From NCBI RefSeq assembly GCF_017303155.1, contig NZ_JAEKJR010000002.1, positions 930,001 to 994,000 on the forward strand: DNA of 64,000 nt, given 5' to 3'. The stretch is from Microbulbifer salipaludis (lineage in GTDB: Bacteria; Pseudomonadota; Gammaproteobacteria; Pseudomonadales; Cellvibrionaceae). The notes beneath the pieces were generated by a model. That model was given only the letters and a program-made list of their open reading frames with translations. It made no database searches and was not told the origin of the DNA. Of the stretch, positions 22,703 to 64,000 are shown in pieces. How positions within the stretch are numbered: the stretch's first letter is position 1; each line of letters opens with the position of its first letter. A program made the position numbers and the translations under genes.

Positions 22703-22870
22703 GGCCCGGCTGGCGGTGACTCCTTGCGAGACACGGACTAGGCGTCCCCCCTCAACCCATCCATGGGGGCTCTTCCGCGAGGTCCCTCTCGCGGACAAAG
22801 CATTCGCTTTGGACGCCGAAGGCGCCCGCAGCTCATCAACGTCTAGCAAGGAGTTACCGCCAGCCAGGCC
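22703..22870 (-). repeat. Structured GGA-hairpin repeat element, divergent copy
   Basis: Outer arms 22703-22732 and 22841-22870 are complementary at 27 of 30 positions. Read on the minus strand, they enclose a hairpin TCCGCGAG-AGGGAC-CTCGCGGA (22774-22795) and then a core hairpin CCCA-TGGA-TGGG (22756-22767) preceded by GAGC. The order arm, hairpin, core, arm matches the other two elements in the window. It reads in the same direction as dapD and dapE and ends 52 bases before the dapE start, so it may lie in the dapE leader. Confidence 0.7.
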
Positions 22871-22957
22871 TGTATTTCTAACTTTTATGCATTGAACTAG
22901 ATCAGCTGGTTGCCCGATGCTGTAATTCGAAGTGCAAAATGTTGACTGAAGGCGAAG

Positions 22958-23055
22958 CACCGGGTGGAGCCTTTCGGAACCGTCGGTGCCATGGATGGCA
23001 CCGCCGGAGCGTACAGGGATGTATTCACAGCGATTCCGAAAGGCTCCACCCGGTG
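22958..23055 (+). repeat. Structured GGA-hairpin repeat element with CsrA-consensus core
   Basis: Perfect 22-base outer arms (22958-22979 and 23034-23055) enclose a hairpin CGGTGCCA-TGGA-TGGCACCG (22984-23003) and a 26-base core (23007-23032) that begins GAGCGTACAGGG and ends TTCACAGCG. The core folds as TACA-GGGA-TGTA and contains GTACAGGGATGT. The core is identical to that at 63782-63807. On this strand it is antisense to the flanking dapD and dapE genes; it lies 50 bases past the dapD stop. Confidence 0.85.
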
Positions 23056-23104
23056 ATTTGCCGCTACGAGGGTCAAAAAAACGGACCCGGTAGCGTCGAA
23101 AAAA

Positions 23105-30445: not shown

Positions 30446-30560
30446 GCGCGCCGCTTTGGGCGGTGCCCGGGCGAAATCAACCAAGCCGGGGCGGGATTTT
30501 TTCTCTGCCCTGAACAAACGCCGCACATATACCGGCACATTCTCCTGGGTGTCTTCACTG

Positions 30561-30661
30561 TCAGTTTTGAAGGTGGGGATTGGTGAATGGGGTATATGGA
30601 GGATGTAACCCGGGAAGTGATCAGCAAAAGATAGTGCTCGTCGCTTCCGTGTGAAAACTGA
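30561..30661 (+). promoter_or_regulatory. Candidate structured rpsB (S2) leader
   Basis: TCAGTTTT (30561-30568) is complementary to AAAACTGA (30654-30661), which lies next to the GAGG binding site, and a smaller GGAAG/CTTCC stem lies between. This would form a closed leader stem touching the ribosome binding site, as expected for the S2-controlled rpsB leader known in gammaproteobacteria. I matched the idea, not a recorded consensus. Confidence 0.4.
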
Positions 30662-32422: not shown

Positions 32423-32497
32423 CGCCGGCGACCCAGTGTCGCCGGCGCCAGCGGGGTGCTCCCGGGGTGTTCATCCGAATACTGCCGGGGCACCCCG
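32423..32497 (+). terminator. Stem-loops after tsf, possibly a terminator
   Basis: A perfect 10-base stem (32423-32432 with 32438-32447, loop CCAGT) is followed by a second stem CGGGGTGC (32452) / GCACCCCG (32490). No T run follows. They lie in the 290 bases between tsf and pyrH, which otherwise contain no gene; the pyrH promoter is probably downstream of them. Confidence 0.45.
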
Positions 32498-62385: not shown

Positions 62386-62583
62386 ACTTGTCGCTATCCT
62401 CGTCGCTATCATAGATGCGTTGCCTGATAATTGGTCTGTTCAGCCTAAATATTGGTCAGGCCATTCTAGCGCCAGTCCGCGGGGCGGCTCAAGGCGCCTC
62501 TGCCAGCGCGCGTGCCCCTTATTTCTGCGGGCTGCCTGAGGTAGAATGCGCGCCCGATTTAACCGACAGAAGCCGACCTCGCT

Positions 62584-63679
62584 ATGGAAATCAATCCGCT
62601 TCTTAACCAGCTCAAAGACCTCGCAGAACGCACTGACGTTCTCAGGGGGTATCTTTGACTACGCTGGCAAAAAAGAACGCCTGACCGAAGTTGAACTGGA
62701 ACTGGCCGAGCCCAGCGTCTGGGACGACCCCGACCGCGCCCAGGACCTGGGCCGCGAACGCTCCGCTCTGGAAGCCGTAGTCAAAACCATCGACGACCTC
62801 GACAGTGGCATCAGCGACAGCCGCGAGCTGCTCGACATGGCCGTTGAGGAAGATGACGAAGATTCCGTCGCCGAAGTGGCCAGCGAACTCGAAAGCCTCC
62901 AGCAGCAGCTGGAAACCCTCGAGTTCCGCCGCATGTTCTCCGGCGAAACCGACCCCAACAATGCCTACCTGGACATCCAGGCCGGCTCTGGCGGCACCGA
63001 AGCACAGGACTGGGCCGAAATGCTGCTGCGCATGTACCTGCGCTGGGGCGAAGCCCACGGCTTCAAAACCACCCTGGAAGAAGCCTCCGCCGGCGAAGTG
63101 GCGGGCATCAAAAGTGCCACCATCCACTTTCAGGGCGAATACGCCTTCGGCTGGCTGCGCACCGAGACCGGCGTACACCGCCTGGTACGCAAAAGCCCGT
63201 TCGACTCCGGCAACCGTCGCCACACCTCGTTCACCTCCGTCTTCGTCTCTCCGGAGATCGACGACAACATCGAAATTGAAGTGGACAAATCCCAGGTGCG
63301 TGAAGACACCTACCGCGCCTCCGGTGCCGGTGGTCAGCACGTGAACAAAACCGACTCCGCCGTGCGTTTGACCCATATCGAATCCGGCATCGTCGTGGCC
63401 TGTCAGAGTGAACGCTCCCAGCACCAGAACCGCGACAAAGCGTGGAAAATGTTGCGGGCCAAACTCTACGAGCAGGAAATGCAAAAGCGCAACGCCGAAA
63501 AGCAGGCGATGGAAGAGAGCAAATCTGACATCGGCTGGGGCAGCCAGATCCGCTCCTACGTACTGGACGACCAGCGCATCAAAGACCTGCGTACCAGCGT
63601 CCAGACCAGCAACTGCCAGGCAGTGCTGGATGGCGACCTGGACCAGTTTATTGAGGCAAGCCTGAAGGCTGGTCTGTAA
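62584..63679 (+). CDS. prfB: Peptide chain release factor 2 (programmed +1 frameshift)
   Basis: Recognises UAA and UGA stops. The first 24 codons run to an in-frame TGA at 62656-62658, and the rest of the protein is in the +1 frame from 62657. The slip sequence CTT-TGA-C with AGGGGG upstream (62644-62649) is the classical autoregulatory site. The full protein is about 364 residues with the GGQ motif ([17 protein letters not shown]) and PxT/SPF-type region. Not a pseudogene. Confidence 0.97.
62644..62658 (+). promoter_or_regulatory. prfB frameshift site
   Basis: AGGGGG-TAT-CTT-TGA: an internal Shine-Dalgarno, the slippery Leu codon CTT and the stop TGA. When RF2 is scarce the ribosome slips +1 and makes more RF2. 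Confidence 0.95.
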
Positions 63680-63734
63680 CTCAGGCAAGCTTAACGGCTG
63701 ACGAAGTACCTCAGTCAAATGCGAAGGCGGAGTG

Positions 63735-63828
63735 CTGGGGATCTGTTTTCAGAACTGTCGCAAACAGGGAAGTTTGCGACAGAGCGTACAGGGATGTATT
63801 CACAGCGGTTCTGAAAACAGATCCCCAG
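63735..63828 (+). repeat. Structured GGA-hairpin repeat element with CsrA-consensus core
   Basis: Perfect 20-base outer arms (63735-63754 and 63809-63828) enclose a hairpin CTGTCGCAAAC-AGGGAA-GTTTGCGACAG (63755-63782) and a 26-base core (63782-63807) identical to that at 23007-23032, folding as TACA-GGGA-TGTA. The arms share no sequence with the other copies. It lies between prfB and lysS on the same strand, 81 bases before lysS. Confidence 0.85.
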
Positions 63829-63908
63829 TGCTCAGCCGCCACTGCACCGGAACCAAGCTCCAAAGCTGCGACGTCCGAAACACACTTTACAATGACATGT
63901 GATAGATC

Positions 63909-64000
63909 ATGAGCAACACACCAACTCAGCAAGACGAAAATAAACTGATCGCCGAGCGCCGCGCCAAACTGAGTGCCATGCGCGAGAAGGGCAATGCCTT
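63909..64000 (+). CDS. lysS: Lysyl-tRNA synthetase, start only (partial)
   Basis: Only about 30 codons are present before the window ends. MSNTPTQQDENKLIAERRAK followed by LSAMREKGNA resembles the LysS N-terminus, and prfB-lysS is a conserved pair. Confidence 0.85.
   Translation, partial: MSNTPTQQDENKLIAERRAKLSAMREKGNA

Follow-up and report, generated by a model that had tools for sequence, protein, structure and literature searches.

A YPAL-type palindromic repeat with two conserved GGA hairpin loops recurs in Gammaproteobacteria and may be kept for the fold of one strand

The palindrome that lies between prfB and lysS of Microbulbifer salipaludis was found to be one copy of a class-wide repeat of the YPAL kind, which carries two conserved GGA loops. 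We favor the reading, with a probability of about 0.55, that it is a mobile palindrome of the YPAL type, maintained for the fold that one of its strands adopts. The window, meaning the whole stretch of 64,000 nucleotides of the M. salipaludis genome that was analyzed, contained the features listed below. The names prfB and lysS are presumptive, and gene calls throughout came from a script of our own and are uncurated.

63723..63842, plus strand: prfB-lysS copy (the element under study), core as given by covariance model R1, 127.4 bits, E 6e-28
63735..63755, plus strand: outer 5′ arm, 21 bp, perfectly complementary to 63808-63828, varying from copy to copy
63808..63828, plus strand: outer 3′ arm, pairing with 63735-63755
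63755..63782, plus strand: hairpin 1, 11-bp stem, hexaloop AGGGAA at 63766-63771 with GGA at 63768-63770
63786..63799, plus strand: hairpin 2, short stem, loop AGGGAT with GGA at 63792-63794
63799..63807, plus strand: unpaired junction strand TTCACAGCG, present also in copies of other genera
63701..63706, plus strand: flank motif ACGAAG, upstream of the core
62584..63679, plus strand: prfB (release factor 2, with frameshift), from sequence and reading frame; stop 43 nt upstream of the core
63909..64000, plus strand: beginning of lysS, truncated where the window stops, from sequence
22948..23067, plus strand: second element copy in the window, R1 130.9 bits, with the exact motif

Within prfB, positions 62645-62659 (GGGGGTATCTTTGAC) are presumably the known programmed +1 frameshift site, and the listed open reading frame (ORF) at 62546-63679 is the downstream prfB frame prolonged upstream. 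A sequence-only reading of this DNA had described perfect outer arms around two hairpins with GGGA in their loops. This was confirmed, with arms of 21 bp, and a longer arm pair (63726-63755 and 63808-63837) was 90% complementary. Motif matching likewise bore out that hairpin 2 is an exact CsrA consensus, as GTACAGGGATGT at 63786-63797 agrees fully with RUACARGGAUGU, the sequence obtained by SELEX. The GGAs of loops 1 and 2 are separated by 21 nt, and the earlier proposal that one CsrA dimer could bridge them agrees with the available text of PMC7652899, which gives the CsrA consensus, the loop rule, and a site spacing of 10-63 nt with an optimum above 18 nt. RNA folding of the prfB-lysS copy gave z = -10.2, with equal stability reached in 0 of 200 shuffles, and both strands folded strongly, also when modeled as single-stranded DNA. 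A window should contain 0.42 chance matches to the 12-mer if one mismatch is allowed, and the 21-mer plus tail with up to three mismatches occurred 0.00 times (100 shuffles).

Because the prfB-lysS copy is in sense with its two flanking genes, any RNA made from it should present CsrA with two well-spaced sites, and CsrA is predicted from the motif to bind RNA of such sense copies in vitro, which we consider likely. The exact motif and the 21-nt spacing also favor an alternative explanation, in which the two loops of each transcribed copy are bridged by a CsrA dimer, so that the copy serves either as a switch on the spot or as part of a dispersed sponge, and CsrA binding itself is the selected trait. 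We regard this as possible but not probable. Counting against it, no sigma-70 promoter pattern occurred in 63500-64000, and the hairpin 1 stems exceed most SELEX stems in length. No intrinsic terminator pattern was found in the same interval, and no T run follows the hairpin.

In the window, R1 matched the two copies (22948-23067 and 63723-63842) together with their shadows on the other strand, as well as two weak partials, and the count of three copies made earlier was therefore corrected to two in the window and about 99 in the genome. One weak partial (22745-22799, minus strand, 17 bits) is separated by some 150 bp from the copy that begins at 22948 and is possibly a decayed inverted partner; the other is at 32423-32447 (minus strand, 11 bits). 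An Rfam search assigned the element to no family at cut-off and detected no csr or rsm family in the window; positions 30504-30609 matched the t44 RNA with 57.2 bits against a cut-off of 44.

Throughout the M. salipaludis genome, the 12-mer occurred 17 times, 16 of them inside the element, and the reversed pattern was absent. The whole-genome search that the sequence-only reading had named was carried out with a covariance model built from those 16 copies and found about 99 copies, which were hand-picked from 161 rows by removing opposite-strand shadows and retaining one weak 33-bit match. Among the 16 copies, 98.8% of the cells were paired and 25 of 45 pairs showed double changes, and neither value was reached in any of 500 shuffles; one of the five covariation measures, that of further pair types (alignment A2), was unremarkable and was matched by 51 of 500 shuffles. 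The outer stem differed in sequence among copies and kept its complementarity, whereas hairpin 2 fell into subfamilies (TACA..TGTA, CCCA..TGGG, and rarer ones) around a constant loop GGA. Arms without covariation had been set beforehand as a possible refuter of the earlier claim; the arms covary, and the claim was not refuted. An intrinsic terminator or a chance palindrome, for which the strong stem downstream of prfB could speak, was refuted by the missing T run, the number of copies (about 99), and the covariation, and retains practically no probability.

Among the M. salipaludis copies, loop 1 retained its GGA in 96 of 99, loop 2 in 95 of 99, and both loops together in 93 of 99, with the stems changing; the 13-nt contexts around it numbered 25 for hairpin 1 and 15 for hairpin 2. 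Such retention despite stem change argues for CsrA binding as the selected trait, whereas the length of loop 1 argues against it, since an A-N-GGA-N-type hexaloop was found in 58 of 96 copies and a loop one base shorter in 38 of 96. A csrA gene, whose presence the sequence-only reading had listed as a check, was found in the M. salipaludis genome. The 5′ foot of hairpin 1 reads CGTC in 70 of 99 copies and TGTC in 3. The junction strand was variable within this genome, with exact TTCACAG in only 28 of 99 copies, which counts against our favored reading. ACGAAG occurred 21-22 nt ahead of the core 29 times over the 99 copies. In L001 and L011, two copies of this genome, an extra GC-rich piece of about 14 nt lies between TTCACAG/TCCACAG and the 3′ arm.

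Nineteen pairs of copies were no more than 200 bp apart in the M. salipaludis genome, and 15 of these pairs were back to back. We abandoned the idea of a cassette, as the genes between inverted copies appeared ordinary (HutC-like, rpmB/rpmG-like, DUF423-like, and HslR-like, by reading the ORFs by eye). The close pairs, together with a location like that of the repetitive extragenic palindromes (REPs) described in the available text of PMC3733652, would suit a REP-type repeat that a RAYT (Y1) transposase mobilizes. We consider this very unlikely, given that no element adjoins either of the two Y1 genes of M. salipaludis, that GTAG occurred at any one position in at most 4 of 99 copies, that the core measures about 120 nt against 20-40 nt, and that Y1 matches were unlinked to element presence (found in 22 of the 28 genomes positive for the element and in 23 of the 39 negative ones). 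The same Y1 counts weigh against the favored mobile palindrome, to which no transposase was tied; the genome G278, with 23 copies, gave no Y1 transposase match.

Beyond this species, named genomes were scanned with a pattern of 22 bases placed on hairpin 2 and its tail, which gave at least 120 stretches; those listed held 122 copies. Among the matches listed were Microbulbifer, Marinobacter, Halomonas and kin, Pectobacterium, Sedimenticola, Zobellella, Alishewanella, Pseudomonas, and many metagenome bins. Between genera, the outer arms were unrelated in sequence and mostly similar in length, whereas named Microbulbifer loci had arms like those of the genome studied here. A class survey found 29 of 370 gammaproteobacterial genomes positive (28 of 273 genera; reversed control, 0), with 1 to 75 pattern counts per positive genome, and a phylum survey found 21 of 397 genomes positive, all 21 inside Gammaproteobacteria; in both surveys, copies were taken from at most 10 places per genome among the matches listed. 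Viral contigs searched with the exact 22-base pattern and plasmids and phages searched with a 54-base query yielded no copy, which weighs against our favored reading. All 28 positive genomes examined carried csrA, as expected if CsrA binding is selected, but so did 35 of 39 negative genomes, and this co-occurrence is therefore non-discriminating.

At the original locus, the 99-aa end of prfB was matched in 48 of 48 genomes of the genus. The prfB-lysS site was read in 30 of the 48 and held the element in 17 (one of them cut by a contig end) and lacked it in 13. Arms at this site differed in sequence from species to species and were self-complementary. The empty-site genome L277 had the filled L276 as its nearest neighbor in prfB (93%), and it was the only close relative that was empty. 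ACGAAG was present on both sides of some copies. Clean target duplications were not apparent, which weighs against the mobile palindrome. In L269 and L271, another stem-rich insert splits the element at this site, on the 3′ side of hairpin 2.

Hairpin 1 lay outside the scan pattern, and 117 scanned copies were far enough from the stretch edge for it to be assessed. The hairpin 1 stretch carried the loop motif in 108 of these 117 copies, compared with 3 when the reverse complement was read and an average of 12.8 over 200 shuffles, which supports the selection of CsrA binding; however, only 71 of 117 passed when GGA was strictly required to sit in a loop of 5-6 nt closed by at least four unbroken pairs, which detracts from it. 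The C, G, G, and A of loop 1 were invariant in the 39 copies of alignment A4, which we chose ourselves (38 from scanned stretches plus the prfB-lysS copy). Conservation of the junction in other genera partly reflects the choice of copies, because the junction was in the search patterns. Hairpin 1 was enlarged by further hairpins, several with NGGA loops, in L072 (Halomonas), L133 (Billgrantia), the similar L159 and L182, L112 (Marinobacter), L096 (Sedimenticola), the similar L184, and L106 (Pectobacterium). The extra NGGA hairpins in some Halomonas, Marinobacter, Sedimenticola, and Pectobacterium copies are slightly CsrB-like and to that extent favor the CsrA explanation. In the L155 copy, hairpin 1 is apparently turned round (loop ATCCAT).

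The orientation of the copies was then compared with that of the genes around them. In M. salipaludis, 81 of 99 copies lay outside called ORFs, 2 of those 81 in divergent gaps, and with the 18 ORF-overlapping copies left out the strand relative to neighboring genes was divided 32 to 30. Nine other genomes gave 18 sense and 23 antisense copies (of 85 copies, 5 edge and 5 inside copies were left out). A sense preference of 26 to 14 seen at scanned loci with crude ORFs, from which 25 contig-edge copies, 3 copies without flank, and 18 ORF-overlapping copies had been omitted, was not confirmed by these nine genomes. In the pooled set, 286 copies reduced to 211 with 31 in ORFs and 16 at edges uncounted, tandem gaps held 52 sense and 54 antisense copies, and 44 copies were convergent and 14 divergent. 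Both hexaloops were kept in 23 of 49 sense and 21 of 32 antisense M. salipaludis copies (p 0.12). As the strand is random and the loops are no better kept in sense copies, a role that requires transcription together with the neighboring gene cannot be the reason why the whole family is kept. The earlier claim thus stands in part: the exact motif, the conserved loops, and the sense position are consistent with a putative two-site CsrA/RsmA RNA at prfB-lysS, whereas its role as a local regulator is disfavored by the dispersed nature of the repeat, the random strand, and the loops.

Intergenic M. salipaludis copies were often close behind genes, lying within 60 nt of the gene end for 25 of 49 with a sense upstream gene and for 39 of 47 with an opposing gene. 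This placement, the 44 convergent and 106 tandem copies against 14 divergent ones, and the strong folding of both strands are consistent with a hairpin at the 3′ end of RNA that protects the upstream transcript or directs its trimming, whichever way the copy points, with loops that matter little. A role of this sort was proposed for YPAL, which is reported to affect upstream transcript stability in the available text of PMC2229807. We consider it rather unlikely as the explanation of the family, because it leaves the retention of the GGA loops and the pairing preference of one strand unexplained.

That pairing preference was seen in the mismatches of the arms, where G.U outnumbered A.C by 96 to 32 in the pooled copies, after leaving out arms less than 16/20 complementary, duplicates, 30 Microbulbifer-like scan copies, and 5 G.U in conserved columns. 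The ratio was 26:7 in M. salipaludis, 27:9 in nine other genomes, and 43:16 at scanned loci of other genera; counted per element, it was 19:3, 18:7, and 26:8, respectively. Antisense tandem copies showed 31:10, and copies with a sense gene upstream 46:12, made up of 30:5 in tandem and 16:7 in convergent gaps. A strand that folds alone tolerates G.U but not A.C, whereas maintenance as a duplex predicts parity, and therefore the fold of the GGA strand seems to be kept. That the GGA strand is the one whose fold appears selected is well supported. Upkeep of the palindrome at the DNA level, at first suggested by the scarcity of G.U in 16 copies, was given up when the larger G.U and A.C counts changed the reading. 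Two points count against our favored reading here: the bias was weak in convergent gaps (elements 9:6, p 0.6), and strand-biased mutation could contribute. A pairing preference on the GGA strand would equally suit selection for CsrA binding, against which it stands that half of the tandem copies are antisense and yet have hexaloops as frequent and the pairing bias kept. A tie to replication was considered as well. The strand of the element followed local GC skew in 44 single M. salipaludis copies (p 9e-5), but this link was unconfirmed in a 30-copy pattern subset (p 0.058) and in 174 other copies (p 0.11), and the association had opposite signs in G336 and G384.

Among known repeats, the 168-nt Yersinia repeat RU-2, printed by Delihas 2007 (PMC2759123, available text) and identical to YPAL of De Gregorio 2006, aligned with the prfB-lysS copy through loop 1 (CANGGA) and an AGC-TACA-GGATGTATT-AC-GCG core. 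Both loops and the junction are present in RU-2. In alignment A5, which comprised RU-2, three Pectobacterium copies, one Vreelandella copy, and the prfB-lysS copy, 31 of 108 columns were invariant, and by eye RU-2 differs at 3 of the 20 fixed positions of the search pattern. The element resembles YPAL also in its many intergenic copies behind genes and its internal inverted repeats. The arms of the prfB-lysS copy had no clear sequence in common with RU-2, whereas the inner arms of the Pectobacterium copies agree with it. Because the core is common and the arms differ, the element is assigned to the same superfamily and not to YPAL in the strict sense. According to the available text of PMC2229807, YPAL is mobile, as judged from sites that are empty in some genomes and filled in others, and target duplications of 3-26 bp adjoin the dyads; it possibly affects upstream RNA and is listed for Yersinia and Erwinia carotovora alone. 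CsrA is unmentioned in that part of the review, and our literature search found nothing joining YPAL with CsrA.

Two Pectobacterium copies also scored above the cut-off for Rfam RF02770, Ysr224 (73 and 82 bits), although on the strand opposite the GGA, and the prfB-lysS copy reached 17 bits against a gathering cut-off of 70. In Yersinia ruckeri, Ysr224 is reported to occur in several copies that are not expressed alike (PMC12112432, available text). Expression of these Ysr224-filed relatives speaks for the CsrA explanation, and the opposite strand of the matches against it. Searches on Ysr224 and on YPAL found no paper common to both.

The CGTC-1 REP dimers of Halothiobacillus neapolitanus (41-bp palindromes) have 'attcacg' 3′ of the dimer, comparable with TTCAC here, and their described stems are 8-9 bp with loops of 4-5 nt (PMC3733652, available text). 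The stems and loops of the element differ from these, and its CGTC lies inside a stem rather than in an unpaired tag; by this description the two are set apart, and a tie through the hairpin 1 CGTC and 'attcacg' is a lead only. With known CsrA ligands (SELEX hairpins, CsrB, and RsmZ), the element shares A-N-GGA-N loops, paired AC/GU, and two sites 21 nt apart, but it differs from them as a dispersed repeat present in both orientations. Literature searches for the motif letters returned nothing related, those on CsrA with palindromic repeats or REP found no such link by title and start of abstract, and those on palindromic intergenic repeats of Marinobacter or Halomonas found none.

We therefore return to the YPAL-type mobile palindrome. 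It would be a miniature palindromic repeat, dispersed over gammaproteobacterial chromosomes, whose working form is probably the GGA strand folded alone. In this fold, an outer stem that is long and largely unconstrained in sequence leads to a three-way junction with two GGA hairpins, their loops mostly of the A-N-GGA-N form, and an unpaired strand of the TTCACAGCG type. A protein may read this fold during propagation, either as single-stranded DNA or as RNA that is copied back, and it is likely that the fold serves propagation of the element. Copies would settle close downstream of genes in either direction. RNA of a sense copy may offer CsrA two well-spaced loops, and many copies together may draw CsrA off, but such binding would be incidental or adopted later and not the reason for the family. 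Two further considerations oppose this reading: the CsrA loop rule fits so closely that an unrelated DNA-binding recognizer would be a coincidence, and arms of free sequence are unusual as a transposon end. A bolder and, in our judgment, doubtful extension is that the palindrome spread through Gammaproteobacteria by carrying a double CsrA site, its transcribed copies forming a scattered, genome-wide CsrA sponge ("CsrB in pieces"). The level of CsrA activity would then be determined by how many copies there are, and the element would itself be under CsrA control. If that were true, the extra GGA hairpins inside some copies would represent growth of the sponge.

The findings unite YPAL/RU-2, Ysr224, and the repeats of Microbulbifer, Marinobacter, Halomonas, Pectobacterium, and others in one family with a defined fold, and this view names the strand on which selection seems to act. 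Small-RNA calls of the Ysr224 type may accordingly be transcribed repeats. Two questions become testable: what moves elements that have no fixed arm sequence, and whether about a hundred scattered loops titrate CsrA.
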